Source: a virus. From it: DNA of 47,351 nucleotides. Position 1 is the first letter of the stretch. Every line of letters begins with the position of its first letter. The translations under genes were made by a program, and so were the position numbers. Shown in pieces: positions 1 to 45,875 of the stretch. The notes below the pieces were generated by a model. The model was not told the DNA's origin. It saw only the letters and a program-made list of their open reading frames with translations, and searched no databases. The stretch covers positions 1 through 47,351 of IMG/VR virus record IMGVR_UViG_3300046529_000371, one strand, 5' to 3'.

Positions 1-347
1 ATGATTTCGGTTTCGTTCTTCGTCAGCGGAGTGCCGAAGATCTGAGCGATCGCGTCAGCCGCGTCCGGCCACTGCTGATGCATCACCAGGCGGAAAAGGA
101 AACCGGCGTCGACATTCAGCGCCTTGGCAAGCGCCGGCACCTTGTCCAGAGGCACCTTCATGGTGCCCTTGGACATCATGTTGACCGGGTTCGGTTTGTC
201 GTAGCCGATGGCCAACGCAATGTCGCGCTGGGTCTTTCCCATCGACTTTGCAATGTCGAGCTGGGCCGCGAGAAAGTCGTGGATTTTGATCCCCGACGCC
301 GTCTTAGGACTTTTGGACACTCTCGCGCCCTCCATTGTAGACAACAT
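1..347 (-). CDS. XRE-family HTH regulator, candidate phage repressor (partial, cut by left edge)
   Basis: Reading leftward from ATG at 347, 115 codons are open to the window edge. The start follows a purine-rich RBS (gagaag) at about 353-360. Residues about 38-58 (GKTQRDIALAIGYDKPNPV) form a Cro/C1-type helix-turn-helix, followed by MKVPLDKVPALAKALNVD, the conserved helix 4-5 region of small proteobacterial XRE regulators, which are usually about 115-135 residues, so only a few residues are likely missing. It stands at the head of the replicon region, divergent from the RHH/repC genes. A weak copy of the dispersed palindrome lies upstream at 513-530, which would fit autoregulation. That it is the repressor of the lytic operons is inference; XRE dimers commonly bind palindromes of 14-18 bp. 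It could instead be a regulator of the rep genes. Confidence 0.8.
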   Translation of the reverse strand, partial: MLSTMEGARVSKSPKTASGIKIHDFLAAQLDIAKSMGKTQRDIALAIGYDKPNPVNMMSKGTMKVPLDKVPALAKALNVDAGFLFRLVMHQQWPDAADAIAQIFGTPLTKNETEI

Positions 348-811: not shown

Positions 812-1021
812 ATGGCGGACTTTGGTGGACCCCAGCGTGTGAAGAAGCTGCGCGAGCGGCGCGCGGCCGAGGGCTACGTCGAGACCAACATCTCGATCCC
901 AAAGGAAGTCCGCGAGGTCATCGACAGTAAGGTTGCGTCAGGTGCGTATGAGAGCCGGCGATGGGCAATCATCGACGCGCTACAGAAGGTTTTTCTGCAA
1001 CAGGAACAGCAATCTAGGTAA
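812..1021 (+). CDS. Small ribbon-helix-helix DNA-binding protein
   Basis: 69 residues, ATG 6-8 bases after GAGAGGA. The layout fits a CopG/Arc-type RHH fold: a basic N-terminus (RVKKLRERR), a short beta strand about residues 22-29 (YVETNISIP), helix 1 about 31-42 (KEVREVIDSK), a turn with GAYESR, and helix 2 about 50-62 (RWAIIDALQKVF). It sits where repB would be in a repABC plasmid, directly before the antisense RNA and repC, so a role in copy control or autoregulation is likely. It is the second candidate for binding the dispersed palindromes. No ATPase (RepA) or ParB-like (RepB) gene accompanies it here. Confidence 0.7.
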   Translation: MADFGGPQRVKKLRERRAAEGYVETNISIPKEVREVIDSKVASGAYESRRWAIIDALQKVFLQQEQQSR

Positions 1022-1101
1022 GCAAAAGGCCCCTGAAGCTGGACACTTCAGAGGCCTTGGTAGCATTAGCCCAGTTGGCACTGGGAGCGCAAACAGCACA
1101 C
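1022..1101 (-). ncRNA. Probable antisense RNA controlling repC (ctRNA/incA type)
   Basis: A leftward transcript of about 80 nt is bounded by a good promoter (-35 TTGACA at 1131-1136, 17-base spacer, -10 CATAAG at 1108-1113, start near 1101) and an intrinsic terminator (stem 1026-1038 with 1046-1058, then TTTT). It is wholly antisense to the repC leader, in the RHH-repC gap. RepABC replicons carry a small antisense RNA in exactly this place and orientation, which lowers RepC synthesis and gives incompatibility. Length is at the upper side for such RNAs. Function is inferred from position and signals, not from sequence homology. Confidence 0.72.
1024..1058 (-). terminator. Intrinsic terminator of the antisense RNA
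   Basis: AAGGCCTCTGAAG and CTTCAGGGGCCTT (leftward reading) form a 13-bp stem with one mismatch and a 7-base loop, followed by TTTTGC. There is no T-run in the rightward direction, so it acts on the leftward transcript only. Confidence 0.78.
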
Positions 1102-1107
1102 GCCCTC

Positions 1108-1136
1108 CTTATGCCAACTCTTTGATTCGGTGTCAA
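1108..1136 (-). promoter_or_regulatory. Sigma-70-type promoter of the antisense RNA
   Basis: Leftward reading: TTGACA (1136-1131, perfect -35), 17-base spacer, CATAAG (1113-1108, 4 of 6). It points into the RHH-repC gap and reaches the terminator after about 80 nt. Confidence 0.7.
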
Positions 1137-1182
1137 GAACACCCCGATTCGGGGAACGCTACCGGCTTGCCCAAATCTGGGG
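1129..1182 (+). promoter_or_regulatory. Structured repC leader with alternative hairpins
   Basis: Just before repC the leader holds GGTGT-caaga-ACACC (1129-1143), CCCCG-att-CGGGG (1142-1154) and CCC-aaatct-GGG (about 1170-1180). The CCCC at 1142-1145 can pair either with GGGG at 1151-1154 or with the GGGG of the repC ribosome-binding site (1179-1182). This fits the repABC control model, in which antisense RNA pairing changes leader folding and blocks RepC synthesis. The pairing scheme is inference. Confidence 0.4.
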
Positions 1183-1188
1183 AAAGTC

Positions 1189-2352
1189 ATGCGATCGTCA
1201 TCATCAGGGTGGCGGCGGACGTCCGCCGCTGCTCTGCAAGGGGTCAAGGCCGTCGAGCCGGAAAGGACCGTCACCAGGCGCGAGCTCTCCATGGTGGCGC
1301 GGAACGCAATGAAGGGGCTGCGGCTCCCCTCCTCGCTCCGGAACCTGCTGGGCGAGCTCGTGGGTGTCTACGGCGAGACGATGGTGAAGGGGAAGATCCT
1401 GATCTACCCCTCGAACGACTACCTGGTCACCCGCACTGGTCTATCCGAGCGGGCCGTGCGCTATGGGATCCGCCGTCTGGTGGATCTGTGCCTGGTCGGC
1501 GTCAAGGACTCGGCCAACGGCAAGCGCTTCGCCATCAAGAACAAGGCCGGCGACATCCAGGACGCCTACGGCTTCGACCTGACCAAGCTTTACGATCGGC
1601 GTGCGGAGTTTGTGGAGCTAATCTACGAACAAGATGCGGAGATTGAGCGGCGCGCGCGGATGTTTGACGAGATCACCATCTGTCGGCGGGCCTCACAGGA
1701 GACGATCACGGCGCTGTCCGAAGAAGGTGGTCGTTTTTCGGACAGGCTCGAGCGCCTGATCGGCCGCACGCCGCGGAGGTCCCGCACGCTGGCTGTCGAG
1801 CTGATCGAGCCGGTGCTGGTCGAGTGGCGCGCTCTACGCTGCGAGCTTGAGGAAACCTTCTATATAGCCGCCTCTGGCGGCAAGAACCGCCGTCTCATTG
1901 AATCAAGACCACCCAATCTTGAATCCCATATGATGGAACAAGAGGCTCTGCGAGGAGCTGAGGCTGGGGAAGATCTTTCTACGCCAATCGGCACCCTCCC
2001 CGTGGCGCTGGTCGTCGAAGCATGTCCTTCTCTTTTGGAGTATGTCGAGCTTCCCCGAAGCGAGGTCGATCTGGTCGCGGCCGGCCGCTTCCTGCGCTCT
2101 ACGCTGGGCGCTCATGCGACCGTTTGGAAAGAAGCGTCAGATGCGCTGGGGCCGGTCGCGGCCGCTGCAGCGGTCTGCCTGGTGCTCCAGCTGTATGAGA
2201 ACGACGCCAAGCGCGGCCAGGCGCAGCGCATCCGCAACCCGGGCGGCTATTTGAGGTCCGTGGTCCGGATGATAAAGGACGGCCGGATGAACCTGCGCGC
2301 CGAACTGCTGGCTCTAATTCGAAAACAAAATGGCCCGACTGAAATCCCCTGA
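1189..2352 (+). CDS. repC: RepC-family replication initiator
   Basis: 387 residues, close to the usual 400-440 of RepC. The N-terminal winged-helix domain shows the family signature: GLRLPSSLRNLLGELVGVYGE (residues 43-63), IYPSNDYLVTRTGLSERAVRYGIRRLVDLCLV (about 72-103), KDSANGKRFAI (106-116), YGFDLTKLYDRRAEF (127-141) and FDEITICRRASQE (159-171). The C-terminal RepC domain runs from about residue 275, with NPGGYLRSVVRMIKDGRMNLRAELLAL near the end. RepC binds an origin that in this family lies within repC itself and starts unidirectional replication. GGGGAAAG lies 2 bases before ATG 1189; the first 30 residues are not conserved, so a later start is possible. Here repC has no repA or repB partner in view, as in repC-only replicons. 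Presence beside tail genes indicates a phage-plasmid. Confidence 0.92.
   Translation: MRSSSSGWRRTSAAALQGVKAVEPERTVTRRELSMVARNAMKGLRLPSSLRNLLGELVGVYGETMVKGKILIYPSNDYLVTRTGLSERAVRYGIRRLVDLCLVGVKDSANGKRFAIKNKAGDIQDAYGFDLTKLYDRRAEFVELIYEQDAEIERRARMFDEITICRRASQETITALSEEGGRFSDRLERLIGRTPRRSRTLAVELIEPVLVEWRALRCELEETFYIAASGGKNRRLIESRPPNLESHMMEQEALRGAEAGEDLSTPIGTLPVALVVEACPSLLEYVELPRSEVDLVAAGRFLRSTLGAHATVWKEASDALGPVAAAAAVCLVLQLYENDAKRGQAQRIRNPGGYLRSVVRMIKDGRMNLRAELLALIRKQNGPTEIP
1855..1945 (+). other. Possible replication origin patch inside repC
   Basis: This is the most AT-rich stretch of repC, between its two domains. It contains GAATC-aagaccacccaatctt-GAATC (direct GAATC repeats around an inverted CAAGA/TCTTG pair, about 1900-1925). 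In RepC replicons oriV lies in an AT-rich part of repC. The location here is inferred only. Confidence 0.25.
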
Positions 2353-3070
2353 CGCCCGCCGGCGAGAGAGCACTGGCCGAATTCGCGGTATCGAGACGAT
2401 TAAGCGGCACGCCGCTCAACGCAATGTGCTGCGGGACGAGACTTTCGACCAGGCGATCGCGCCGGCCGTCATCCAGGCCTTCAACGAGGGGGTTCGATTC
2501 TTTTGGCAACTGGCGGATTGGCTGAATGAGCGGCGCCTGCTCACCTGGCGCGGCGAGTCCTGGACGCGACAGCGCGTCGACAGCGCCTTTAGGCGCGAGC
2601 ATCGGCGGATATTGAACGAGGTCGGGATCAAAAACGGGCCGAGACCGTGTCCTATATGCTTCATGACGACCCGCACCGACTGCCCTATTCCGGGCTCCTG
2701 GTGTCACGGGCGATCGAGGGTCGGCAGACGGTGCAATTCGAAGCAGATGCCGAAGGCGCAAAGACAAAAACTGCTCGCGGCCCCGCGGCAAGTCTTGATC
2801 GCTATGAGCGAGGAGTGGCGACGTGATCCTAAATACGCCGTTGAGGTTTCGAACCGCGGCCGGGTTCGCAAGCGAGAGCTGCTGGAAGCAAAACTGTCGC
2901 CCCACGGTGATCTCTGCGTCGATATTGGCGGGGTAAGCCTGCCTGTCGCATATCTCGTGGCGACAAATTTCCACGGCACCCCGCAAGCGAGGAACGAGAC
3001 CATCCGTTTTCTGGATGGCGATCGACGAAACGTCGATGCTGCAAATCTGGGCTGGTCTATTCGCCGGTGA
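2330..3070 (+). CDS. Resolvase-helix / degenerate NUMOD4-HNH composite ORF
   Basis: This 246-codon frame overlaps the end of repC by 23 bases. Residues about 35-95 (FDQAIAPAVIQAFNEG, LADWLNERRLLTWRGESWTRQRVDSAFRR) resemble the small recombinase-domain helices found after serine resolvase catalytic domains. Residues 159-246 (EEWRRDPKYAVEVSNRGRV ... LVATNFHG ... NETIRFLDGDRRNVDAANLGWS) resemble NUMOD4 plus HNH homing endonucleases, but the usual His residues of HRLVA and NHIDG are replaced (AYLVA, RFLDG), so nuclease activity is doubtful. The linking part (about 110-158) is Arg/Cys-rich and unconvincing. The true arrangement may be two or three genes: the NUMOD4-like part has its own ATG at 2804, overlapping the end of another open frame (2656-2826). 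Function unknown; perhaps a DNA-binding accessory of the replicon. Confidence 0.5.
   Translation: MARLKSPDARRRESTGRIRGIETIKRHAAQRNVLRDETFDQAIAPAVIQAFNEGVRFFWQLADWLNERRLLTWRGESWTRQRVDSAFRREHRRILNEVGIKNGPRPCPICFMTTRTDCPIPGSWCHGRSRVGRRCNSKQMPKAQRQKLLAAPRQVLIAMSEEWRRDPKYAVEVSNRGRVRKRELLEAKLSPHGDLCVDIGGVSLPVAYLVATNFHGTPQARNETIRFLDGDRRNVDAANLGWSIRR
2656..2826 (+). CDS. Possible small gene in an overlapping frame
   Basis: Between the two recognisable domains of the 2330-3070 frame, another frame encodes 56 residues from ATG 2656 (MLHDDPHRLPYSGLL ... RAIEGRQTVQFEADAEG) with a balanced composition that looks more protein-like than the Arg/Cys-rich alternative. Third-position GC, however, favours the 2330 frame. 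Its TGA at 2824 overlaps the ATG at 2804 of the NUMOD4-like part. I see no clear RBS. Either this is a real short gene or the region carries an old frameshift. Confidence 0.3.
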   Translation: MLHDDPHRLPYSGLLVSRAIEGRQTVQFEADAEGAKTKTARGPAASLDRYERGVAT

Positions 3071-3073: not shown

Positions 3074-3148
3074 TGGCTCGAGAGGCAGGATTCGAACCTG
3101 CGACCACCCGATTAACAGTCGGGGGCTCTACCGCTGAGCTACTCTCGA
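3074..3148 (-). tRNA. tRNA-Asn (anticodon GTT)
   Basis: Leftward cloverleaf: acceptor TCGAGAG (3148-3142) pairs with CTCTCGA (3084-3078); D-arm GCTCAGCGGTAGAGC; anticodon stem CCCGA/TCGGG with loop CTGTTAA, giving anticodon GTT; variable loop TGGTC; T-arm GCAGG-TTCGAAT-CCTGC; discriminator G and encoded CCA (3076-3074). All stems pair. It ends 3 bases from the end of the rightward ORF at 3070, at the convergent junction between the replicon region and the lytic genes. It may support translation of phage genes or be a captured host tRNA. Confidence 0.93.
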
Positions 3149-3596: not shown

Positions 3597-4274
3597 TTAG
3601 GCGAGCGTCGCGGTCGAGTTGAGCACCTGCCAGCCGGCGCCGAGCCACTTCAGGCGGGCATACTTCTGGACGGTGTCGAAGGTCAGCGTGCTGCCGCCGA
3701 TGAACGTGCCGGTCACGACGGCATTGGAGCCGGTGCCCTTGGTGTTCAGATAGAGGGTGCATTCCTGGCCCTCTTCGCCGTTCGGCAGGTTGAAGGCCAT
3801 CACGGCGCCGGCCAGGGTGACGAGCGCGTAGGTCTCGGCGTCGAGCTTGATCGGCTCCACGCCAGCGCCACCGGTCAGGGCCGCAGCCGAAACGGTCGCG
3901 TTCGCGCTGGTTTCGGCCAACGTGAAGGAGCTGCCGTCACCGACAACCTTGAGCGTGACGCCGAGGCCCGTGCCACCCACGTTGGAATAGGTCGCCAGGC
4001 TGACTGCGGGGTCGACCGAGGCACTGAGCACCGTAACCATCGCATCGATCGTGGCCGAGAGGCTGCCACCGATGTTGAACTGGTTGCCGGCCGCGCCGGA
4101 AGCCTTGGCCGTGAACACGACGCCCTTGAAGGTGAACGTGTCGTTCGCCGCGGGCTGGCCGGTGAAGTTGATCGCACCAGTCGCCTGGCGGGCGCCGGTG
4201 AGCTTGTGGGAAGCGCGCTTGCCGGCGGCAATACCGGCCTCGCGGGAACCCTGGTGAGTCTGAGATCGAAGCAT
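3597..4274 (-). CDS. Virion structural protein with a domain shared with the major tail protein
   Basis: 225 residues; ATG 4274 follows GGAGG at good spacing. Residues about 30-135 (TGAINFTGQPAANDTFTFKGVVFTA ... NQFNIGGSLSATIDAMVTVLSAS ... VTLKVVG) resemble the domain inserted in the major tail protein at 44953-45816 (GTVTFVTAPPVDGDKVTVNGKDFTF ... IGATIAICASSLAAAINAS). The C-terminal half is beta-rich (YLNTKGTGSNAVVTGTFIGGSTLTFDTVQKYARLKWLGAGWQVLNSTATLA), typical of decoration or fibre-associated domains that report a flat baseline. Its own operator (4298-4315) stands just upstream and a terminator lies beyond. Probably a capsid or tail decoration protein; exact place in the virion unknown. 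Confidence 0.6.
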   Translation of the reverse strand: MLRSQTHQGSREAGIAAGKRASHKLTGARQATGAINFTGQPAANDTFTFKGVVFTAKASGAAGNQFNIGGSLSATIDAMVTVLSASVDPAVSLATYSNVGGTGLGVTLKVVGDGSSFTLAETSANATVSAAALTGGAGVEPIKLDAETYALVTLAGAVMAFNLPNGEEGQECTLYLNTKGTGSNAVVTGTFIGGSTLTFDTVQKYARLKWLGAGWQVLNSTATLA

Positions 4275-4330: not shown

Positions 4331-4365
4331 AAAGAAAAAGGGGCGGATCAAACAAGACCCGCCCC
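4331..4365 (-). terminator. Intrinsic terminator ending the ligase operon
   Basis: Leftward reading: GGGGCGG, 12-base loop, CCGCCCC, then TTTTTCTTT. It separates the DNA-ligase operon (last gene ends at 4462) from the structural gene at 3597-4274, which has its own operator downstream of it. Confidence 0.85.
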
Positions 4366-4430
4366 GAGCACAACAGAGGAGAAACACGACTTAACCCAGT
4401 CGCCGGGGTAACATAATTGCGCAAAATAGG

Positions 4431-4461: not shown

Positions 4462-4731
4462 CTATTTCGCGATGCACTCCTCGACCGAGGTGCATTGGCA
4501 GGAACCGCCCTGGCGACCACAGGAGGCTTCGGGCCCAGGCACGTAGCTCGGATTGTCACCCAGCACGAATTTGAGGCGCCGAACTTCGACTTCGGCCGTT
4601 CGCGCGCGGAGCAGTAGTTCCGTGTTGTGGGCCTGGAGCGCGGTGTTCTGAGCCTCGAGATCCGCAATCTTGCCCTCAAGGAGCTCGATCGTGAATGATT
4701 TGCGCATCCGCGCCGCCTGATCGCTGGTCAA
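4462..4731 (-). CDS. Small coiled-coil protein with Cys-rich tail
   Basis: 89 residues from TTG 4731, overlapping the ligase stop as TTGA, with a strong GGGGAGGG site just upstream; an internal ATG lies 8 codons on. Residues about 14-50 (IELLEGKIADLEAQNTALQAHNTELLLRARTAEVEVRRLKFVLG) show heptad hydrophobic spacing of a parallel coiled coil. The tail holds four cysteines (CGRQGGSCQCTSVEEC), which could bind metal. I do not recognise the family. It is the last gene of the WGR-Cys protein-ligase operon and is probably translationally coupled to the ligase. Confidence 0.65.
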   Translation of the reverse strand: MTSDQAARMRKSFTIELLEGKIADLEAQNTALQAHNTELLLRARTAEVEVRRLKFVLGDNPSYVPGPEASCGRQGGSCQCTSVEECIAK

Positions 4732-5846
4732 TCCACCCTCCCCTCGGCGCCCTGGAAGTCGATCGCGACCGGGAAGCGGAGCGAGCCGTCCGGCGTGCGG
4801 CCGAAGTGACGGATCGTCGCCTGCTTGTAGAGCCCGGCGTTCTCGAGGAGCTTCTTGGCGAAGTCCTGGTTGCCGCGCATGCCGGCACCGACCTCGCCGT
4901 CGGGCGCATCCGGAATGTCCAGAACAACCCGCTTGGCGTAGCCTGCCCAGTTGCCGTTGCCTTCCTCGATCCGCTTGATCGGGAACTCCTCGGTAATGAA
5001 CTCCTTGCGCTTGAGCAGGCTCTTGGAGCGGGTGTCGAAGTCATAGGGCGCGTCCAGGCGAACCATCTGGCCCTCGTAGCCGTCCTGGGTGTAGAGCCCG
5101 TTGAGCCGGTCCAGATGGTCCTGCTCCAACACGCATTGCGTGAGAACGATGCGCAGCGCCGGATGACTGTGCAGGCCGAATTCCAAGCCGATCTCGTCGA
5201 GCCGCTTGATGCGCTCGCTGAACGGCTTGTCGCTCGGCAGATCGTAGACGTGATACTGGAGCAGCTTCGCGGCCTCGGCCTTCTGGTCGGCCGACGGCTT
5301 CTGCTTGCGGACCACCGAGACGATCTTGTTGAAATCATCCTTGAGGTCGTGGTTGTAGAACTCGCCGTCGAAGCTGATGTCCGGATACTTCGCGAACACC
5401 GGCGCCAGAGCCTCGAGGATGTGATCGCAATTGTAGTGCGGCTGGAGCTCGCGCGAGAACGCACCGTGCCGGCTGATGATCGCCCGGATGCCGTCCAGCT
5501 TCGGTTGGCTGTAGACCGGGAAGGTCAGCGGCTTCTTCAGTTTGGCGTAGTCGGCGGCGAGCATCGGCCCGACCGGAACGGCATCGAGCTCGATCTCGGT
5601 CCAGCGGTATTCCCGCTTGAGCTTCTTCTGCATTTCAGCCTCGCCCTCGGCTGCGGCTTGCTGCTCCGCGGTCGTCGCGTTAGCGCGGCCGACGTTCTTC
5701 GGCTCGCACTTGGTCCAGCCAGTGGTGACGAGCGAGCCGCCCTTGACGCCGGCGATGGTGCGATAGCTGTCGCCCTCGACCTCGTATTGCCAGGTGCGGA
5801 TCTTGCCGGCGGTGTCGCGCTTGTAGATCGGTGGGGAAATGCTCAA
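4728..5846 (-). CDS. ATP-dependent DNA ligase
   Basis: 372 residues, starting at TTG 5846 (TTGA overlap with the previous stop; GGAGAA 6 bases upstream; no other start precedes the conserved IYKRD segment). Motif I KLDGIRA with adenylated Lys116, motif III FDGE (159-162), motif IV DGYEGQMVR (255-263) and motif V SLLKRKEF (276-283) are all present, followed by an OB-fold region. The first 80 residues (YKRDTAGKIRTWQYEVEGDSYRT, GWTKCEPKNVGRANATT) form the accessory N-terminal domain seen in several phage ligases. It seals nicks during phage DNA replication or circularisation of incoming DNA. It is coexpressed with a stand-alone WGR protein that may recognise nicks. Confidence 0.93.
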   Translation of the reverse strand: MSISPPIYKRDTAGKIRTWQYEVEGDSYRTIAGVKGGSLVTTGWTKCEPKNVGRANATTAEQQAAAEGEAEMQKKLKREYRWTEIELDAVPVGPMLAADYAKLKKPLTFPVYSQPKLDGIRAIISRHGAFSRELQPHYNCDHILEALAPVFAKYPDISFDGEFYNHDLKDDFNKIVSVVRKQKPSADQKAEAAKLLQYHVYDLPSDKPFSERIKRLDEIGLEFGLHSHPALRIVLTQCVLEQDHLDRLNGLYTQDGYEGQMVRLDAPYDFDTRSKSLLKRKEFITEEFPIKRIEEGNGNWAGYAKRVVLDIPDAPDGEVGAGMRGNQDFAKKLLENAGLYKQATIRHFGRTPDGSLRFPVAIDFQGAEGRVD

Positions 5847-6385
5847 GACTGGTTCTCCATTGCTGCGTTGACGGCTGCGCTCATGTCGCCCGACTGGGCG
5901 GCACTGACGAGTTCGGATGCGTCGGTCTTGGCCGGCGCGGTGGGCTTCTCGACGGTGTCAAGCTCCATCGCGGCCTGCTTAATGCTGCGGGTCTTCTTGA
6001 CCGTCTTGTTGACGTAGTTCTTGGCGTCCTCGTTATGCTCGACGAGGTATTTCGCCTCGGCAGCGGACAGCGAGAACCGGTTCATCATCTTGTCCGTGAT
6101 CAGCACCTTGCCGGTCGCGTCCAGGAGCTCGGTGTCGAAGTCGCGGACCCGCGGCTCGACCGAGTGGTATTCGTCGGTGCCGTTGCGGACCATGCGCTTG
6201 ACCAGGCGGTCGATCGGGCATTTGCCGCAATGCATCGCGGCCTGGCATCCTGCCCGCTTGTCGGGCGGACCATCGCCGCGCCAGACGAGATCGCGCAGGA
6301 TGAAGCACGCGGCGATCCGGCTCTTGGTCGGAAACACCGGGCAGTTGATGACGAGTTGGTTTTCGGTCGCGAGTGTCTTGTTCAA
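5843..6385 (-). CDS. Unknown Cys-rich phage protein
   Basis: 180 residues, starting at TTG 6385 in a TTGA overlap with the stop of the WGR gene; the longer open frame upstream is only the shadow of that gene. Five cysteines cluster in the first half (NCPVF, CFILRDL, GCQAAMHCGKCPID), which could hold a zinc or Fe-S site. The second half is predicted helical (SLSAAEAKYLVEHNEDAKNYVNK, KTRSIKQAAMELD) with an acidic, low-complexity tail. I do not recognise the family. Its place between a WGR protein and DNA ligase suggests a DNA-metabolism role. Confidence 0.7.
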   Translation of the reverse strand: MNKTLATENQLVINCPVFPTKSRIAACFILRDLVWRGDGPPDKRAGCQAAMHCGKCPIDRLVKRMVRNGTDEYHSVEPRVRDFDTELLDATGKVLITDKMMNRFSLSAAEAKYLVEHNEDAKNYVNKTVKKTRSIKQAAMELDTVEKPTAPAKTDASELVSAAQSGDMSAAVNAAMENQS

Positions 6386-6885
6386 CCCCAGATCCCCCAG
6401 TTTGGATTCGATGCGATACGGTCTTCGATGGGCTCGGGCGGCTCCGGCGCCTCCTCGACGAGCTTGCGCGGGCGCTCCGTGTAGCGACCTGCCTTTTCGT
6501 CCCATTCGGCTTCGTGCTGGCCGTCCTTCATGCCGCTGACGTCGGCGCCAGGGATCAGCAGCGCCCAATCGCGTGCGCCGATCGCGGCAACGAGCTGATT
6601 GCCTAGGTGCTTGCGAAGCGTCTCCTCATCGTGAGCGATCTGCTCCTTGTCGATGAAGTGGGTGCGATATTCGCCCTCAAGCTTCTCGCGGTGCTTCTTG
6701 TCCCAGGCCCTGCGGGCATCGATGTAGTCGGGGAAATACTCGCACTTCCAACCCTTGCCCCACTGGGCCTTCTTGCCCCAGCGATTGATGTAGAGTGCGC
6801 GACCGTCAGCCGTCTTGATCAGGATTAGGTGATAATCCTTCGTGACGGCGCGACCCGACTTCTTAACGATCGTCATGGGAAACAT
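6382..6885 (-). CDS. Stand-alone WGR-domain protein
   Basis: 167 residues; ATG 6885 follows AGAGG. Residues about 18-75 (YHLILIKTADGRALYINRWGKKAQWGKGWKCEYFPDYIDARRAWDKKHREKLEGEYRT in segments) fit the WGR fold: RWG at 35-37, conserved G after it, the aromatic CEYF strand, then the KKHREKLEGEYR helix. WGR domains bind nicked or broken DNA in PARPs and occur beside bacterial ligases. The C-terminal 90 residues are charged and helical, ending in a Pro/Glu-rich linker. It opens the operon WGR-Cys protein-DNA ligase-coiled-coil protein, with a promoter (6935-6963) and an operator (6960-6977) upstream. Confidence 0.72.
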   Translation of the reverse strand: MFPMTIVKKSGRAVTKDYHLILIKTADGRALYINRWGKKAQWGKGWKCEYFPDYIDARRAWDKKHREKLEGEYRTHFIDKEQIAHDEETLRKHLGNQLVAAIGARDWALLIPGADVSGMKDGQHEAEWDEKAGRYTERPRKLVEEAPEPPEPIEDRIASNPNWGIWG

Positions 6886-6934
6886 GACTTCGGAACCTCT
6901 GTTGTTGTGTGCGCTCTCGCGCTGCTCTCGATTA

Positions 6935-6963
6935 CATATAGCGTGTTCGTTCAGGATTGTCAG
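6935..6963 (-). promoter_or_regulatory. Sigma-70-type promoter of the WGR-ligase operon
   Basis: Leftward: CTGACA (-35, 5 of 6), 17-base spacer, TATATG (-10, 4 of 6), leaving a leader of about 45 nt before ATG 6885. The -35 box overlaps the edge of operator site 3, so a bound repressor would occlude it. Confidence 0.55.
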
Positions 6964-6977
6964 TCAAAACTGACTGG
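6960..6977. promoter_or_regulatory. Dispersed operator, site 3 (variant)
   Basis: tcagtcaaaactgactgg: the AGTCA-N4-TGACT core is intact and symmetric, the outer bases diverge (CAGTCA instead of TAAGTCA). It fills most of the gap between the primase stop (6983) and the promoter of the WGR operon. Confidence 0.65.
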
Positions 6978-6982
6978 AACGA

Positions 6983-8095
6983 TCAGGCAGCTTTGAACGG
7001 GTTTTGCAGCATCCATTTGATGTGCTGCGCCGTGCTGTAGGGAACACGCTCCCAGAACGCGCGCCGGCAGACGTCGCCCGTGACCTCGTTCGGGTCGCGA
7101 TCGGCCGGCAACAGGGCGATGTAGACCTTGAGCCCGATCCGGAGCAGCAGCTTGGCCGCTTCGCAGGCCGCGAGCAGCGCCTTGTGCTCGCCGTCCCACA
7201 TGATGGTCACCTCTTTGAGCCCTTGGCTCTTGAGGGTCCGGAAGCGCGAGAGCTGGTCGTTGTTGTCGGCGGCGCCGAATGACAGGTGCTTGCCGAACGA
7301 GCCGACCGGCACCACGTCGCGCAAGGCGACCTCCTCGTCGAAGGCCTTCTTCAACGCCATGACGTCGAAACCGCCCTCGCCCATCACCACGCGCTCGGCG
7401 CGTTGCACGGATTGCCCGTTCAGGAGATATCGACCCGTTCCTGGAAGACCTTTTGGGAACAAATATTTCTTGTCGCCCGCGAGCCCGGTAATGTCGCGCC
7501 CCTGGAACGTGACGAACTCGCCATCGAGATCGTAGACCGGGATGATGACGCGCCCGCCGAACTGCTGGAAGCCGTCTTTGCCGTCCTCGTTCTTGAACTT
7601 CCACCAGCCGCGCTCGCAGAAGCGTAGATGAAAATAGTTGGCGAGCTTGCCATCGATGCCGCGATCCTCGAGGTATTGGAGATTGCAGCCCTCGGGCGTC
7701 GGCAGCTCGAACGAGTTGGGGAACACGGCCTTTTCATAGGCGACCGCGACCTGGACGGTCTTCTTGGGGCGCCAGCCCTGTTCCGTGATGCATTCCGTGG
7801 CGTGCTCGAAGGTCGCGCGCCAGGACTTGCGGTCCTCCGGATCGCTGCCGAGGTATAGGTGGATGAAGCTCAGCTTGTTGAAGGTCTGGTTGCAGACGAA
7901 GCAGTTGCCGAGGCCGGTGTCCGCGTTGAGGTAGACGCGCCAGCGAGCGTCGCCGCAATGCGGGCAGTCCTTGACGTTGATCTGCATGCCGCTGGAGCCG
8001 CGCCCGACCTTGTGGGCGATGCTCTCGCGGTCCATCCAGTATTCGAGATCAAGGTGCTCGACGAGCTCGTCCTTGTCGACGCGGACATGCATCAT
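6983..8095 (-). CDS. DNA primase (zinc finger plus TOPRIM)
   Basis: 370 residues from ATG 8095, which overlaps the helicase stop as ATGA; the open frame further upstream is helicase shadow. A CPHC...CFVC zinc ribbon uses C44, C47, C65 and C68. The TOPRIM core shows MGEGGFDVMALKKAF (E240, D244) and IMWDGE (D301), followed by LLPADRDPNE. This is the layout of T7 gp4-like and related phage primases without a fused helicase. It would lay down RNA primers for phage DNA synthesis together with the helicase encoded immediately upstream. Confidence 0.9.
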   Translation of the reverse strand: MMHVRVDKDELVEHLDLEYWMDRESIAHKVGRGSSGMQINVKDCPHCGDARWRVYLNADTGLGNCFVCNQTFNKLSFIHLYLGSDPEDRKSWRATFEHATECITEQGWRPKKTVQVAVAYEKAVFPNSFELPTPEGCNLQYLEDRGIDGKLANYFHLRFCERGWWKFKNEDGKDGFQQFGGRVIIPVYDLDGEFVTFQGRDITGLAGDKKYLFPKGLPGTGRYLLNGQSVQRAERVVMGEGGFDVMALKKAFDEEVALRDVVPVGSFGKHLSFGAADNNDQLSRFRTLKSQGLKEVTIMWDGEHKALLAACEAAKLLLRIGLKVYIALLPADRDPNEVTGDVCRRAFWERVPYSTAQHIKWMLQNPFKAA

Positions 8096-9447
8096 AGGAT
8101 GCCCAATACCTTCGTTGCGAATTTCATCTGCTCCCGCTTCTGTTGCAGGCGCAGCGTGACTTCCTTCTGGTTGCGGCTGGCCGCGAAGTGCAGCCGGCAC
8201 TCGCCGGCCGAGATTTCGGGGTCGGTAGCGTTGCCCGACAGCAGCAGATCGGCGATGCGGGTCTTGTTGTAGTCCTCGGCGACGTCGGTGCCCTTGGCCA
8301 CGGTGGCCTTGGCGCCCTCGCGGTTGGTCTGGGTGGCCGTCAGCAAGGCCGCGTTCTGCTCGTAGGCGATGTCGCGCAGGTCGATCCAGACCGTCCTGGA
8401 ATCCTCACGGATCTCGCCAGTCAGCCGTTCCGGACACATGATGTCGGCGTAGTCGACGATGATCAGGTCGAAGATGATGCCCTGGTCGCGATACCACTCC
8501 AGGCGCCGGCGGAGCTGGCTCGGCTTGAGCCGGCCGCTCGAATATTCCTCCATCTTGATGATGCCGCCGGCAGCCTTGGCGCGGGCTTCGGCCGCCTGGA
8601 TCTTCTTCTGGACGTCGAAGGCGTTGCCGGTCAGCGCGTTCATCGCGGTGTCGGCGAAGTTGGCGTCCATACGGTCGGCGTAGATGCGACAGGAGACTTC
8701 GCAGGTCGCGATGAAGACCTTGTAGCCGGCCATCGCAGCACCCTTGCCGAAGTCGCCGAGCGCCATCGACTTGCCGAACTTCGCGCGACCCATGATCGCG
8801 GAGAGCTCTTTGCGGCCCCAGCCGCCGTGATAGAGGTGCTTGTCGATCTCGGGCAGGCCGGTGGTGATGCCGGAGGGCTTGATCAGACCGGTTGCGAGCG
8901 CGTTGCGGTGCTTGGTGCGTGCCTCGATCTCGGCGAAGTAGTCATATTCGCCGCTGCCCTGGACGGCGCCGACGTTCACGGCCGCGCGGATGATCTGCTC
9001 GATCTTGGCGTAGTCAGCCTTCCCCAGCAGCCCGACCGAGGCCATGATCGCGCCCTCCATCGCCTTGTGCTTGGCGAAGTCGGCGACCTGGTCGATGGCG
9101 TAGTCGCGGTTGGACAGCGAGGTGCCCAGGAGCTCACCGAGGCGCGGCTTGATATCCGGCCACAGATCCTTCGGGATGCGCTTGTCGTCCTTGGCCTCTT
9201 TGATGACCCGCACCAGAGTTGCGGGATCCGGTGCCTGCTTGTATTTCCGGAAATGGTCCTGGGTGACCTTGACCAGCACCTTGTCGATGTCGTTCTCGAA
9301 GTAGCCAGGGTCGATCAGCCCGTCCGTGCGCTGCACGAAGACGGGGTCGCGCAGCGCGAGCGCCGCGATCTTGGTCTGGAACTTCTCGTCGAACTCGAAG
9401 GTCGCCTCCTCGGCGGCCTCCGGCTCTTTCTCCTCGACGTCCGACAT
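8092..9447 (-). CDS. DnaB-like replicative helicase
   Basis: 451 residues; TAATG overlap with the Hfq-like gene. The RecA-type core has Walker A GRAKFGKS (220-227), a helicase H1a-like E at TCEVS (248-252), Walker B DLIIVDYAD (327-335) and the H3 motif TATQTNR (370-376), followed by the ASRNQKE and KREQ region near the end. The N-terminal 160 residues are helical, like the DnaB N-terminal domain. It is a hexameric 5'-3' helicase partner for the primase. Operator site 4 lies 37 bases upstream of its start, inside the preceding gene. Confidence 0.9.
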   Translation of the reverse strand: MSDVEEKEPEAAEEATFEFDEKFQTKIAALALRDPVFVQRTDGLIDPGYFENDIDKVLVKVTQDHFRKYKQAPDPATLVRVIKEAKDDKRIPKDLWPDIKPRLGELLGTSLSNRDYAIDQVADFAKHKAMEGAIMASVGLLGKADYAKIEQIIRAAVNVGAVQGSGEYDYFAEIEARTKHRNALATGLIKPSGITTGLPEIDKHLYHGGWGRKELSAIMGRAKFGKSMALGDFGKGAAMAGYKVFIATCEVSCRIYADRMDANFADTAMNALTGNAFDVQKKIQAAEARAKAAGGIIKMEEYSSGRLKPSQLRRRLEWYRDQGIIFDLIIVDYADIMCPERLTGEIREDSRTVWIDLRDIAYEQNAALLTATQTNREGAKATVAKGTDVAEDYNKTRIADLLLSGNATDPEISAGECRLHFAASRNQKEVTLRLQQKREQMKFATKVLGIL

Positions 9448-9728
9448 TAAGGCACCCGGTAGAAGCGAATGCTGTGCTTGAATACAGTCAGAACTGACTT
9501 ATACGATCCGTCAGGGTTAGACACCTCGATCTTGAGCGAGAACTGATCCGCTTCGAGGAGAATGCCGGTCAGACCGTCCTCGGCGCCGAACAGGATCTCG
9601 ACGCGCTTGCCTTTGGCGTTGGCGAGGTCGCCCTGATGGCTCCAGGGCTTGGGCTTGAACGGCTTGCGATCGCGGGTGTTCTCGCGCTTGAACTCGGGTC
9701 GGGGCGCGCGGAAGGGTGTCGTCGTCAT
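9447..9728 (-). CDS. Hfq/Sm-like small RNA-binding protein
   Basis: 93 residues. After a basic, disordered N-terminus of about 40 residues, positions about 42-93 match the Sm fold as in Hfq: RVEILFGAEDGLTGILLEADQF (Sm1; Hfq has VNGIKLQGQIESFDQF) and VLTVFKHSIRFYRVP (Sm2; Hfq has MVYKHAISTVVP). The conserved G, DQF and KH pairs are in register. A phage Hfq-like ring could bind phage or host small RNAs, or single-stranded nucleic acid at the fork, given its coupling (TAATG) to the helicase. Host-independent function is inference. An operator palindrome (9484-9501) is embedded in its coding sequence. Confidence 0.68.
   Translation of the reverse strand: MTTTPFRAPRPEFKRENTRDRKPFKPKPWSHQGDLANAKGKRVEILFGAEDGLTGILLEADQFSLKIEVSNPDGSYKSVLTVFKHSIRFYRVP
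9484..9501. promoter_or_regulatory. Dispersed operator, site 4, inside a coding region
   Basis: acagtcagaactgactta. It is encoded within the SYKSVLTVF segment of the Hfq-like gene and lies 37 bases before the helicase start, the same spacing as intergenic copies, so it probably acts on helicase-primase expression. Confidence 0.65.
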
Positions 9729-9751
9729 CTCTACTCTCTTTCGTTGTCGTG

Positions 9752-10573
9752 TTAGCTATAGCGCTGCATGCGCGGTTCGCTGCCGGCGAACGACAGGAAA
9801 CGTTCGAAGCCGTGCTCGTCGAGGCGGGCCTTGACCTTCTCGAGCGGCAGCACCTGGTCGTGGAAGACCATCTGCGCGAGGATCTCGTGACCGTTCACGC
9901 GGTTCTCGCACTGGGCAAAGATCCACTCGTGATGCTGGTTCTGGTTGTGCAGGACCGAACTGTCGATGTCGGCATCGGCCAGGATTCGGGTGGCCTCGAG
10001 ATAGGCGCCGTTCTTGTATTGCGGCAGCGCTGAGTAATAAAACTCCGCCTGCTGCCGTTCTTCCCATGCGATAGTTGCGCGATCGACCACCAGATCGGAA
10101 TAAAGTTGCTGGGGTCGCGGCAGGTGGCGCTGCTGCCAATAGCGCAGCGACCAATGGAAGGCGAGCTCGAGGTAGACCGGATACGGGATACCCATCGCGT
10201 CGGCGACCATGCGGCCGCGCCAGATCCCAACGGTTCGCATCTTGTGCGAACTCAGCCGTTTCCGGAATGCCTTGTCGGTCTCGTCCTGCTTTTGCTCCGG
10301 CAGAACGAACATCTTCTCCACGTTGAGCGGCTTGATAAACTGCGCCGTTCCGGTGTCGATGTTGACCGAATAGGCCTGCTTGTAGGCTTTGACGAACTCG
10401 TGGGCGTAGAGGTAGGTCGCCTGGACCGGGTTCAGGTAGCGGTAGTCGAACCACTTGCCGCGATAGAGCGCGGCCTCGACTGCGAGCCAGTCGCTTTTGA
10501 TCCAACGATTCCCAAACATAATCCGGGCAGCTTCATCCTGCCCGGTCTCCAGTCCAAACAATGCTTCGGTCAT
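9752..10573 (-). CDS. Conserved-looking phage protein of unknown function
   Basis: 273 residues; ATG 10573 overlaps the PhoH stop as TAATG. Rich in aromatic residues and helices (WIKSDWLAVEAALYRGKWFDYRYLNPVQ, YLYAHEFVKAYKQAY, MGIPYPVYLELAFHWSLRYWQQRHLPRPQQLYSD), with a His-rich stretch HNQNQHHEW near residue 210. No nucleotide-binding motif, signal peptide or membrane segment is visible. It lies between PhoH and the Hfq-like gene in the replication module. I do not recognise the family. Confidence 0.8.
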   Translation of the reverse strand: MTEALFGLETGQDEAARIMFGNRWIKSDWLAVEAALYRGKWFDYRYLNPVQATYLYAHEFVKAYKQAYSVNIDTGTAQFIKPLNVEKMFVLPEQKQDETDKAFRKRLSSHKMRTVGIWRGRMVADAMGIPYPVYLELAFHWSLRYWQQRHLPRPQQLYSDLVVDRATIAWEERQQAEFYYSALPQYKNGAYLEATRILADADIDSSVLHNQNQHHEWIFAQCENRVNGHEILAQMVFHDQVLPLEKVKARLDEHGFERFLSFAGSEPRMQRYS

Positions 10574-11388
10574 TACGCTCTCAGAGTTCGCGCGAGACCC
10601 GTCTGATCAGTCTCGCTGTCTCTCTCGCTATAGCGTTCGCTTTCAGGGTTGCTTGACGTTTCGTAAGCCTCGACGATCGCCTGGCAGACCGGATCGCGGA
10701 CGATGTCCTCCTTGCGGAACCGGATCAGCCCGACGAACGGCATCTGGCCGAGCCGGCGCACCGCATCCTCGAGACCGGAGGGGCCCGGAATGTCCTTCTG
10801 GGTCGGATCACCGTTGACGATGAAGCGGCTGTTCTCGCCGATGCGGGTCAGAAACATCTTCATGCCGGACGGGGTCGCGTTCTGCATCTCGTCGGCGAGC
10901 ACCCACGCATTCTTCAGCGTAGCACCCCGCAGGAACGCGAGCGGGCGCACCTCAACGATCTTCGTCTTGATGAAGTATTCGAGCTGCCCCGAACCCAGTC
11001 GCTCCTCCAGCGCGTCCCTGACGGGCCGGAAATAGGGCTCGGTCTTCTCGTCCATCTCGCCAGGCAGGAAGCCCAGGCGCTCGTCTGCGGCCTCGACGGC
11101 CGGCCGGGTGATGATGATCCGCTCGATCTCCTTGGCGAGCAGCGCCTCGGCGGCGAGTGCCGCGGCATACCAGGTCTTGCCGGTGCCGGCCGGGCCGATC
11201 CCGAAGGTGACGCGCGAGGCCTGGATGGCCGCACCGTAGAGCCGCTGACGCTCGGTGAGCGGCCGCAGCGGCGCGCGCGAGGCGCGCACGGGCGCCCTGG
11301 TAATTTCTTCCTTGACGAGTTGCAGTAGCGGGCCGTGGTCCTTTGGTTTCTTGGAACGTCTATCGAGGCGGGCGGCGGCGCGCGACAT
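10573..11388 (-). CDS. PhoH-like ATPase
   Basis: 271 residues. Walker A GPAGTGKT (65-72), ITRPAVEA (93-100), [11 protein letters not shown] (105-115), Walker [10 protein letters not shown] (162-170), [14 protein letters not shown] and GDPTQ (193-197) give the full PhoH signature. PhoH proteins are P-loop ATPases, widespread in phages, with suggested RNA helicase or phosphate-stress roles; the function in phages is unsettled. It begins 9 bases after the Ntn-hydrolase gene, in the operon headed by operator site 5. The first 40 residues are basic and probably flexible. Confidence 0.92.
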
Positions 11389-14143: not shown

Positions 14144-14165
14144 AGTATAAGTCAGGACTGACTGT
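14144..14165. promoter_or_regulatory. Dispersed operator, site 6, with abutting TATACT
   Basis: taagtcaggactgactgt (14148-14165) touches the stop codon region of the tailspike gene. Leftward, TATACT (14149-14144) follows immediately, then CTGGAG and ATG 14119: a compact operator-promoter-RBS unit. Confidence 0.75.
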
Positions 14166-17100
14166 TACGCAACCGCGCGCAGCCAGGCCTGATGCACCAC
14201 GCCGCCCATGGTGACGTCGCCGAGATAGTTGTCGGTTCCATCTCCCGTCGCCAGGCCGAAGGTCGCAACCATGTCGGTCGCCGCGATCGCGGTGAATTCG
14301 AAGCCGATCTTGACGAAGCCGTTGATGTCCGGCACCGCGAACGGGATCGGGTTCGTCAGCGACCCATAGGGGAAGAAGCTGTCGATGACGCCGTTGACCA
14401 GGTCGTAGAAGACGCTTTCGCCGGAGGCGAAGCTGCCCTGCTGAAGCTGGATGCGAGCGAAATTGTGCCCGATCGGCTTGACACGCACCCAGACCCGGTA
14501 GACCCGAACCGCGGTATCCTTGGTGTAGGTCTGCTGAAGGAAATGCTGCTGGGTAACTGCGGTCTCGAGAACGTTCCAGGCCGTTGACCCGCCGAACGGA
14601 TCGGTCTGACCACCGACCGGCGACTGCACAGCCGTCTTGCCCCAGACGCCGGCCGTGAAGGTGTTCGGGCTGGCGAAGAGGTTGGTCTTGGCGATATTGG
14701 AGAACTCGGACTTGAACCGGGCGCTGACCGTCGGATACTGGTCCTGGTCAAGCCGGTTGTGCGCGAAGCTATTGTCGGCGTTGAAGTAGCCGAAATAGAT
14801 CACGTTGTTCTCGATGAACCACTCCAGCATCAGCGACACGTAAGCGGACGCGGTGTCGCTGTCGACACCCCACTCGCCAATGCCAAACGGCTTGCCGTGG
14901 GTGAGCGCAAAGTTCTTGACCCAGTTGAGCCCGTAGGTGTCGGCGACCTTCAGCCGGAACGCGGCCACGGGGTCGGTGCCGTCGATCGCGGAGAGGTAGT
15001 AGACGTCCTGATCGATGATGTCGACGTAGCGGTCGCCCGGATAATATTGCGAGGGGTCGTAGGCCACGCCGCCGTAGCGCGTGGTGTAGTTGATGCCCCA
15101 CACGATGCGGAAGCGCGGATCGACGCTCATGAACAGCTCGACGATGCGCCGGAACGCCGCGATATAGGTCGCCTCGACACCTACGGCCGTCCAGGCGTAG
15201 GTCGGGGAGTTGGCCTCCCAGAGCGGCCGGAAGAAGATGTAGGGGTCGGTCGGGCGCCCCTGGGCGATCAGGCGCGCGACCGCGAGCAGTTGAGCGTCAT
15301 AGGTGCCGGCAGCGATCTGCGCCAGCGTGACGCCCGAGGGCGGCCCGAATGACCAATGGACGCGCTTGTTCGAGGGCGCGATCGCCGCGAGCTGCGCGAG
15401 GATGTTGTTCTGGAGATTGGTCCAGGATGTGTCCGCGGAGCCGACCGTGGCGTAGCCCAGAACGAAATCCGCTGTCGTGCCCAGCCAGGTCTCGTAGTTG
15501 GAGATGTTCGAGACGTAGCCGCCGCTCAAGAACGGATAGACCGCGCTGAGCTTGCTGTCGGTCGAGCTCCAGCCATTCACGACGGGGTAGCCCGTGATCC
15601 GCTTGATCAGACGCCTGTTAAGGGTCGTCGGGATCGCATATTGCGTGGTCGGGTCGATGTTCGTGATCGTCTGGGTCGAATTGTCGTCGAACGTGAAGAC
15701 GATGCGGCCGATGCCGGTGCGCTGCAAGGTGATCGCATTCGCCGTGCGCGACACGGTCGCCGTCGTGGTGTCGATCAAAGAGGTCGGGAAGGATCCAGCC
15801 TCGCATTGCGGGAATGCGAAATAGATCGTCCGGCTCGTGCCCGTATAGGTGACAGAGCGGATCGAGGAGGTGTTGGGAATACCGCAAAGGCTGACCGGGC
15901 CGGTTGCGACCGCGGCGGTTGCGGTTGCTGACATCGTGCAGCGATACCAGCCACCACCAACAGCCGTGATCGTGGCGCCAACGAGCGTTCCACCCGTAAC
16001 GACGGAGCCTGCTCCGCTATTGCCGGTCAGGTCGAAGTTCGCATAGCCGATACCGGCGCCGAAGGCCGCGAGGCCGAACGTCATCTGGAAAATCGACATG
16101 GTCCCGGCTTTAACGTAGACCGAGGTGGTATACGTGGTGCCGACGCTGACCGTGTAATTGCCGGTGCTCGCTACGATGAGGTTGTGCGCAACACCGGCAG
16201 TGGTTCCCTCATTGAAGAGAGCCGCGGCTGTTCCACCCTTGGGGTCTGCCTGACCACCCGTGATCGTGGCGTTGGTCGGGGTCCAATAGGTTGCGTTCGT
16301 CAGGTTGCCGTTCGACAGCGCAATGTTCGTTCGCGCCGGCTCCACAAGCAGGCCGCCATCGCACACCGGGACAACGCCCGAGGTCTTCTGGGTCAGTGCG
16401 CCCGACTGCGTTGTCACCCACTGCGTAGAGGTGCGCGTGTCGACGAGCTCCGTATCGAAGATCCGCGGAAATGCGCTGGAGTTGAAGAAGTCCAGATCCA
16501 GAGATGCCGCGCTATTCACCCAGGCCGGCAGGCCATCGATGACCGGAACCGCGATCATGCTCTTGTTGGCGGTGGCCGGCAGCGCGCCATCGCGCTTGGT
16601 GTTCCAGACGGTCTTGTTGAGCGTGGTCGGCGAGATCAGATAGGAGCTCGGCGTCTCCGCAACGGCATTGCTCGATTCGAAGATGACGGGACTGTCGCCG
16701 ATCGTGATCGTCTGGCCGAACGTGACCAGATAGCGATTGCCCTTCAGGTCGCGATACTGCGTGAAGCCGTAGGGAACGATATAGGAGCCGCTGCCCGAGG
16801 TGTCCCAGACGATCTGGGCCTGGTAGTTACCGTCGCGCACCAGGTTGCAGGACCAGAACGTCCCGGATGCGGTGGCCGGGCCGCGCATGGTCGCGCCTTC
16901 GAGCCAGTTCCGGATGAGCCGGTAGGCTGTGGAGGCGTCATTGTGGCCGTTGGTGATGTCGTAGAGGGTGCTGTAGACCGCGTTATCGAGCGCATACCAG
17001 TAGGATGCTTCGATGCCCGCCGACCATGTCAGCACATAGGTCTTGGCCAGGTAGCTGGCGCGCAGCGCGACGCTGCCGACGTTTGCGTTGGCCGCGGGGC

Positions 17101-24598: not shown

Positions 24599-24613
24599 AA
24601 TCAAACCTCTGTG

Positions 24614-32803: not shown

Positions 32804-33210
32804 TGCACCACCACTGGGGTGCCGAAGACCACATAGATCATCGCATCTCCAGGGTTCAGAAACTGCGTTGAAAACGTCAGTGGAGAGCGTCGAATATAGA
32901 AACCTGCAACTCCAACCCTGTTGATGGCCCCATACAGATAGTCGTCGCGAATAACGGCGCCGCTCTCAAACTTCCGACACTCGATGTAGGGCACGTAGCC
33001 CGGATCGTTGATCAGCACGCTAATGGCGAAGGTGCCAGACGAAGCGATGCCGGACTGTAGGATGGGAACGATGTCGTTCCAGTTCGAATTGAAGGACAGA
33101 TTCGGCGACTGGTCGCCTTCAGCGAGTGCATCAAAGCCGGGCAGCGCCGCCTTGAGGCCATAGGTCACGCCGTCAGCATATTTTCCGATAATGACGCGAC
33201 GAGAGGTCAT
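32800..33210 (-). CDS. Tail-tip-adjacent protein, first of three tandem paralogues
   Basis: 136 residues; ATG 33210 overlaps the J stop as ATGA. It begins MTSRRVIIGKYADGVTYGLKAALPGFDALAEGD; the start pattern RRV-I-IGK-ADG-YG and GFDA recur in the next gene. The remainder (FAISVLINDPGYVPYIECRKFESGAVIRDDYLYGAINRVGVAGFYIRRS in part) is beta-rich, ending DAMIYVVFGTPVVVQ. Close coupling to J suggests it binds the tail tip. Confidence 0.7.
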   Translation of the reverse strand: MTSRRVIIGKYADGVTYGLKAALPGFDALAEGDQSPNLSFNSNWNDIVPILQSGIASSGTFAISVLINDPGYVPYIECRKFESGAVIRDDYLYGAINRVGVAGFYIRRSPLTFSTQFLNPGDAMIYVVFGTPVVVQ

Positions 33211-39086: not shown

Positions 39087-39094
39087 TGGCCCTG

Positions 39095-39116
39095 TATATA
39101 AGTCAGGAGTGACTTA
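39095..39116. promoter_or_regulatory. Dispersed operator, site 13
   Basis: taagtcaggagtgactta (39099-39116), both arms perfect. TATATA (39095-39100) abuts it on the gene side. ATG 39086 is only 8 bases further, so a transcript from that -10 would be nearly leaderless; the site may instead block passing polymerase. Confidence 0.83.
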
Positions 39117-39125
39117 CAAATCAAG

Positions 39126-39545: not shown

Positions 39546-39548
39546 GGC

Positions 39549-44858: not shown

Positions 44859-44871
44859 GAGATCCTGCTGG

Positions 44872-44907
44872 CAAAAGAAAACTGGCGGAGCTCGTTGCCC
44901 CGCCAGT
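44872..44907 (-). terminator. Intrinsic terminator between major tail gene and G
   Basis: Leftward: ACTGGCGG, 11-base loop, CCGCCAGT, then TTTTCTTTTG. It stands after the major tail gene and site 14, and before the G start. It would let the tail tube gene be transcribed in excess over the chaperone and tape measure genes, with partial read-through. Confidence 0.83.
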
Positions 44908-44930
44908 CACTTTTGCTTCAATCAAGCAGA

Positions 44931-44948
44931 TAAGTCAACACTGACTTA
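44931..44948. promoter_or_regulatory. Dispersed operator, site 14
   Basis: taagtcaacactgactta, both arms perfect, identical to site 12. It is 4 bases from the major tail gene stop and 72 bases before the G start, with the terminator in between. Confidence 0.85.
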
Positions 44949-44952
44949 TCTA

Positions 44953-45816: not shown

Positions 45817-45833
45817 AGATCCGATCCCTTTGC

Positions 45834-45875
45834 AAATGACCGCAGAAACTGATGGGCTCTATTCTACGGTCATTT
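45834..45875 (-). promoter_or_regulatory. Stem-loop in the leader of the major tail gene
   Basis: AAATGACCG (45834-45842) and CGGTCATTT (45867-45875) form a perfect 9-bp stem with a 24-base loop in the 5' leader. It may protect the abundant mRNA or tune its translation. Both arms contain the string TGAC also found in the operator, which may be chance. Confidence 0.45.

Follow-up and report, generated by a model that had tools for sequence, protein, structure and literature searches.

How does a virus persist when it carries a plasmid-type repC gene, but neither repA nor repB, together with siphovirus tail genes, and which elements would control and partition such a replicon? The IMG/VR record examined here is a contig of 47,351 bases (the window, analysed in its entirety); it is of the linear class and so may well be a fragment. 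A terminase gene, a major capsid gene, ParA and a circular end are all absent from these 47,351 nt. The features are collected in Table 1. Our reading, to which we give a probability of roughly 0.85 as a whole, is that of a RepC phage-plasmid with RHH and antisense control, a ParA on the terminase side and an alphaproteobacterial host.

Table 1. Features of the window and the evidence for each.
Feature	Position	Strand	Remarks
Xre/HTH regulator	3-347	-	cut by left edge; weak HTH_3 match; divergent from RHH-repC
Two CCGAATCA motifs, candidate operator	716-778	716-723 minus, 771-778 plus	upstream of RHH
Small RHH protein, candidate autorepressor	812-1021	+	69 aa; repB position; aligns with annotated RHH/CopG genes
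Candidate antisense RNA, ctRNA-like, ~75 nt	1024-1105	-	intrinsic terminator at end; hairpin arms 1026-1038/1046-1058
Antisense promoter	1108-1136	-	-35 TTGACA 1131-1136; 17-nt spacer; -10 CATAAG 1108-1113
Two further CCGAATC motifs	1123-1152		flank antisense -35 box
RepC replication initiator	1189-2352	+	387 aa; PF03428 and PF11800
Candidate oriV, weak	1889-1988		lowest-GC 100 nt of repC: 50% against 62.6% for whole gene
HNH nuclease	2330-3070	+	weak recombinase-like HTH; overlaps repC 3' end; beside tRNA-Asn
Phage tRNA-Asn(GTT)	3074-3148	-	SSU5 tRNA-Asn at same ligase-cobT junction
Ligase, WGR and hypothetical genes, primase, DnaB helicase, PhoH	4728-11388	-	lytic replication block collinear with RHEph10, pLM21S1
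T5 A1-type DNA transfer protein	22700-24604	-	phrog_1745, E = 1.7e-142; 49% to LM21
Siphovirus tail genes	33207-47338	-	host-specificity J, minor tail, tape measure, Ig tail protein, minor capsid, HK97-gp10-like

A RepC gene in a phage genome of the RHEph10/pLM21S1 lineage

The product of repC matched the RP-C N-terminal domain (E = 2.9e-36) and the C-terminal domain (RP-C_C; E = 3.9e-17) of Pfam, with the protein covered. The sequence-only reading of the gene as a genuine RepC standing without repA and repB held. Its identity was 35-36% to the RepC proteins of RHEph10-group phages and 46% to that of a Microvirga megaplasmid. Neither repA nor repB was found in the window, in the 5.3 kb further left on a near-identical contig (L009, which matches the window at 14700 of 14710 bases), or in the 20 kb leftward of the same slot in the nearest long relative (G002). 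The parS palindrome GTTN4GCN4AAC had 0 matches in the window, and the GGTNNGNGCNCNNACC form gave 1-mismatch matches only, at chance level and with none in the cassette. RepC suffices and is needed for replication of p42d, the oriV of which lies in an A+T-rich central part of repC (PMC3155836). In the window virus RepC would likewise start replication, with the origin expected within its own gene, where the lowest-GC stretch is a weak candidate for oriV.

A tblastn search of phages with RepC recovered ten Rhizobium phage records of 115-122 kb and two small unannotated contigs. The genes of RHEph10 run from the tail through an A1 DNA-transfer protein, PhoH, DnaB, primase and ligase, followed on the opposite strand by repC and a 68-aa ORF and then by a divergent ORF, cobT and cobS; the window shows this order mirrored, small orthologous ORFs included. 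Thus it contains the collinear block siphovirus tail-A1-PhoH-DnaB-primase-ligase of RHEph10 and pLM21S1 as well as the arrangement of a RepC gene convergent with the ligase operon, RHH upstream, a divergent HTH gene and then cobT-cobS (the last pair read on L009). The slot and orientation of repC are common to RHEph10, X66, B1VFA, V1VFA-S, N1_10 and Y2_11. The window is best explained as about 40% of a siphovirus-type phage genome of about 115 kb from the RHEph10/pLM21S1 lineage and only distantly related to SSU5.

The full siphovirus tail that repC was first said to adjoin exists as a tail and minor-capsid block at ~33.2-47.3 kb, but it does not directly neighbor repC: between the two lie the ligase, primase, DnaB and PhoH genes (4.7-11.4 kb), fibre and glycosidase-like genes, A1 and a spanin-like gene. 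In the lytic cycle, replication would pass to the primase, DnaB, ligase and polymerase that the phage itself encodes.

The position of repC close to a contig end, and its membership in a plasmid gene family, would also fit an assembly chimera in which the end of a repABC-type plasmid was joined to a phage contig, an artefact that the sequence-only reading had itself raised. L009, a contig from a second metagenome, spans the junction with 14.7 kb of essentially identical sequence, and the junction recurs in G002 and G004, in a MAG contig of Methylocystis and in numerous named phages and plasmids. These independent assemblies of the junction rule out a chimera, the probability of which we consider virtually nil.

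Several side observations were made in the window and its relatives. Two large proteins of the fibre region (14165-18403 and 20668-22641) contain glycosyl hydrolase domains, GH26-like and GH16, and are possibly polysaccharide depolymerases. Two distant proteins (3597-4274 and 44953-45816) both match phrog_28344 over their Ig-like part; a decoration-type domain is duplicated beside the ligase operon. A SorX match at 4335-4409 was far under the gathering score and was dismissed as chance. IMGVR 3300046694_000296 (L032/L035; 215,656 bp) contains a pair of DnaB genes separated by ~108 kb, along with two ParA matches, which we read as two related phage-plasmids joined, or as a co-integrate or dimer. 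The Halomonas sulfidaeris chromosome (L065) has PhoH, DnaB, primase and ligase relatives broken into several short ORFs, and this locus is probably a decayed integrated relative.

Predicted controls of RepC dosage

The small gene at the place of repB had been taken for an RHH gene, and alignment bore this out: its product aligned with proteins that are annotated as RHH/CopG and encoded in the corresponding spot, upstream of repC, in pLM21S1 and RHph_X66. The protein had no Pfam match and a weak match to a PHROG of unknown family (E = 0.0017). RHH was not found in the cassette of G004. On the other side of RHH, the truncated Xre gene is complete on L009 (144 aa, L009:5203-5637), where it is followed leftward by a 75-aa ORF, cobT and cobS. 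This divergent gene has homologues in the HTH genes that occupy the corresponding place in RHEph10, LM21, X66 and G004 and that stand next to RepA_C in sister phages; it is a candidate lysogeny regulator.

Between RHH and repC, the minus strand carries a promoter followed by an intrinsic terminator. The TTGAC of the promoter was invariant in 18/18 aligned loci, and in the 18-sequence alignment both sides had changed with the pair retained at 6 of the 12 terminator pairs. When each sequence was shuffled, 0/300 shuffles reached the observed score in 14 of the 17 phage-plasmid loci; the other three (Shinella, Faunimonas and Ancylobacter) were recovered on reading, two having a -35 box of TTGACT and one a wrong repC start. 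RepC of repABC plasmids is limited by an antisense RNA encoded between repB and repC, and repC-only replicons under such antisense control exist as well (PMC3155836, PMC10194956). The Rfam model ctRNA_p42d (RF00489) had no match in the window at E <= 1, and as a positive control it detected the ctRNA in 7/7 repABC plasmids at E <= 0.16. By position and anatomy the minus-strand gene is ctRNA-like, a candidate RNA that is not a member of RF00489. A conserved predicted antisense-RNA gene between RHH and repC, at the position of the repABC ctRNA, is new.

Exact copies of CCGAATCA occur 3 times in the 47-kb window, all within 716-1130 and on both sides of RHH; their clustering around RHH and the antisense promoter is likewise new. 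In the regions upstream of repC at 18 loci, CGAATC/GATTCG was observed 45 times compared to 5.1 expected, and G004, the only cassette in which RHH was not found, had no copy of the motif. The motif fits a candidate RHH operator, an assignment that depends on one exception (G004) and on a motif picked post hoc. We infer that two negative controls, rather than autorepression by RepA/RepB, set the dosage of RepC. One would be the RHH protein, which probably acts at the CCGAATCA sites that precede its gene and surround the antisense promoter; the other would be the antisense RNA, directed against the RHH-repC leader for copy control. This is a concrete copy-control model (RHH plus antisense RNA), where the literature found so far notes only the presence of repC.

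Plasmid state and partition

RepC phage-plasmids are already known, having been proposed in 2015 (pLM21S1/RHEph10) and 2025 (B1VFA/V1VFA-S). The first report described pLM21S1 as a plasmid-like prophage related to RHEph10 that has a replication system of RepC-like type, lacks an integrase and was not inducible by mitomycin C (PMC4447125); the second listed B1VFA and V1VFA-S as possible prophage-plasmids with parA, parB and repC (PMC12509600). pLM21S1 is circular (117.5 kb), and its RepC, RHH and HTH genes are arranged as in the window. Circular plasmids with repC in the same slot also include M. oryzae unnamed2 (116.8 kb), Methylobacterium AMS5 pAMS5a (117.7 kb), Pararhizobium p5 (115.7 kb), Shinella unnamed3 (117.5 kb) and pRlX6 (119.4 kb; already in PMC12509600); the repC of pRlX6 is split into two ORFs, and with its broken genes this plasmid may be decayed or badly assembled. 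RepC and ParA occur together in draft contigs of Ancylobacter (114 kb), Faunimonas (109 kb) and Phyllobacterium (118 kb) and in the viral contig G004 (114.5 kb), which also has a resolvase in a 230-aa frame. The circular plasmids and the RepC-ParA contigs make the phage-plasmid reading strong by kinship. For the window virus, these relatives indicate that it very probably persists as a plasmid in an alphaproteobacterial host, where the lysogen would contain it in circular form; a low-copy state is plausible. The idea of a plasmid prophage is therefore supported by six circular RepC plasmids of 115-119 kb, but the 2015 and 2025 reports mean that it is not an undescribed kind.

Searches for tyrosine integrases and serine recombinases (resolvases) in the window came back empty, in agreement with the initial claim that no integrase was in view. 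An ORF at the right edge (45852-47108, plus strand) was rejected as an integrase, since minor capsid genes of the opposite strand overlap it. Among the relatives, no tyrosine integrase was found in G004 (114.5 kb) and no integrase in G001 or G002, and none is annotated in RHEph10 or in the circular plasmids of ~115-119 kb that belong to the family. An integrated prophage with a vestigial repC would have to keep its integrase outside the incomplete window, and we regard it as very improbable given these results, the lack of an integrase in LM21 (PMC4447125), the existence of the relatives as free circular replicons, and a repC that is open and conserved together with the antisense RNA and RHH.

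More can be said for a virulent phage without a lysogenic plasmid state, in which RepC would serve solely to activate an origin for lytic DNA replication. RHEph10, B1VFA, V1VFA-S and others were isolated from plaques, with lysogeny of those isolates only proposed (PMC12509600); RHEph10 has a full lytic replisome with RIIA/RIIB-like genes; and pLM21S1 was not inducible (PMC4447125). This reading is nevertheless unlikely: besides pLM21S1, five circular plasmids of 115-119 kb from bacterial genome assemblies carry the same cassette, the ParA/RHH pair is conserved, a candidate copy-control antisense RNA is present, and related Nickievirus and Stenotrophomonas phages replicate with the slot free of RepC.

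Partition of the phage-plasmid had been expected from a ParA/ParB or other system beyond the left edge, and this expectation failed. Xre-cobT-cobS lie there, and no partition genes were present in 5.3 kb of the same virus or in 20 kb of the nearest long relative (G002), which holds cob, sigma, polymerase and RecA genes. The leftward order beyond Xre is cobT-cobS-sigma-DNA polymerase, and the relatives have ParA and a small partner by the terminase. Thus a repABC-style layout, in which repA-repB directly precede repC and the partition genes would be the left-hand neighbors, is exceedingly improbable here. In RHEph10, the gene for ParA (213 aa) and that for a 92-aa RHH/ParG-like protein overlap each other at 102-103 kb, not far from the terminase; this 92-aa partner matched ParG (E = 3e-4) and RHH_10 (E = 5e-5), both just under the Pfam cut-offs, and genes with ParB_N domains lie near the ParA region. 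This ParA is also present in pLM21S1, all ten Rhizobium phage records and G004, where a 116-aa RHH_10-like partner follows it. In the orientation of the window, the partition genes of the relatives map beyond its right edge, farther out than the capsid and terminase genes. The window virus would similarly be partitioned by ParA and an RHH/ParG-like partner with an overlapping gene, both encoded by the terminase and outside the window; the location of partition genes in RepC phage-plasmids is now indicated.

The replicon slot and comparison with known systems

The junction between ligase and cobT differed in content among relatives. Its occupant is RHH-RepC in the window; sister viral contigs have a RepA_C initiator there together with ParA and Xre, Roseospira has RepA_C next to Xre, an Oxalobacter contig has Xre alone, SSU5 has only tRNA-Asn and nickie has nothing. 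The Xre gene stays with whichever initiator occupies the junction. A junction that behaves as a replicon slot, with RepC, RepA_C or nothing depending on the relative, is a new observation. The HNH gene of the window is probably a homing insertion in this slot, outside the replicon proper.

The RepC tree, which leaves out the Paracoccus row (a wrong-frame translation), united the RepC proteins of phage-plasmids and Methylobacteriaceae megaplasmids in one group, set apart from repABC RepCs by a 100/100 branch. A single closed clade of phage RepCs was rejected (AU p = 2e-10), since the RepC of pMRAD01 is sister to that of the M. oryzae phage-plasmid (100/99). Plasmid matches to RepC at E <= 1e-30 numbered 34, many of them megaplasmids of Microvirga, Methylobacterium or Bosea, and in pMVF16-5 and pMRAD01 an RHH gene and an antisense RNA accompany RepC. 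The clade test and the shared cassettes lead us to conclude that RepC cassettes moved between phages and megaplasmids, in one or both directions. The slot comparison and the tree thus suggest a trade in replication modules, which bears on phage-plasmid host range and incompatibility change. Whether RHH, antisense RNA and RepC together make up a mobile replicon cassette of a distinct kind, with the RHH repressor at CCGAATCA replacing RepA/RepB, with moves between phages and Methylobacteriaceae megaplasmids, and with an exchangeable initiator slot by the conserved Xre gene, we judge to be an even bet; if true, initiator swapping would re-set the plasmid compatibility of phage lineages. The control anatomy, the replicon slot and the exchange with megaplasmids are the new content of this analysis.

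Two megaplasmid loci deserve separate mention. Positions 4526-8523 of pMRAD01 (L103) have an operon-like order of small RHH, repC, repA and repB, with repC first compared to the usual repA-repB-repC. In the Microvirga megaplasmid pMVF16-5 (L104), an IncQ-type RepA/RepC pair (9031-10802) lies 3 kb from the RHH-RepC cassette, and this plasmid carries two replicons side by side. Plasmids of Methylobacterium indicum (pVL1_2), Rhodovastum and Endozoicomonas share the A1 protein and were set aside as other phage types; pVL1_2 and the Rhodovastum plasmid carry genes for a contractile tail or baseplate, and the stretch read showed no RepC.

Among relatives whose host is named, the nearest is a 43-kb Methylocystis MAG contig (JALHNR010000003) with the same gene order and identities of 58% for RepC, 48% for RHH, 62% for Xre, 78% for A1 and 77% for primase; unlike the window, it has no identified HNH gene. 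Next by DnaB identity are Methylobacterium phage-plasmids (53%). This kinship suggests a host in the Hyphomicrobiales: the sequence comparisons make an alphaproteobacterium most likely, with a Methylocystis/Methylobacteriaceae-like member of that order the likeliest, and extend RepC phage-plasmids beyond the Rhizobiaceae to this host group. pLM21S1 and RHEph10 (PMC4447125) share with the window the convergent ligase and repC, the RHH gene, the HTH gene leading to cobT-cobS, and the RepC, DnaB, primase, A1 and tail proteins, and no integrase is annotated in them or was found in the 47-kb window, but RepC is only 37% and DnaB ~50% identical, and the slot of the window has an additional HNH gene and tRNA-Asn. 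B1VFA, V1VFA-S, RHph_X66 and plasmid pRlX6, proposed phage-plasmids with reported ParA/ParB-like genes (PMC12509600), have RepC in the same slot; their RepC identity is 37%, and the host group of the window virus is likely different. The SSU5 phage-plasmid supergroup resembles the window in DnaB (38%), ligase, cobT-cobS, a tRNA-Asn at the same junction and the presence of ParA, but has no RepC at the ligase-cobT junction.

Compared to repABC replicons, the window has no repA-repB operon with repC, no parS and no RF00489 ctRNA. The antisense RNA just upstream of RepC resembles that of pRmeGR4a and p42d-type repABC plasmids, where it controls RepC (PMC10194956, PMC3155836); the window differs from the p42d type in having RHH in the place of RepB and a predicted antisense RNA that is unrecognised by RF00489. 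RepC with a predicted antisense RNA gene upstream agrees with the repC-family replicons, which have RepC without RepAB and antisense control. The Methylobacteriaceae megaplasmids pMVF16-5 and pMRAD01 share RHH, the antisense RNA and a RepC of the same clade with the window, and differ from it in being megaplasmids; pMRAD01 also has repA-repB downstream of repC.
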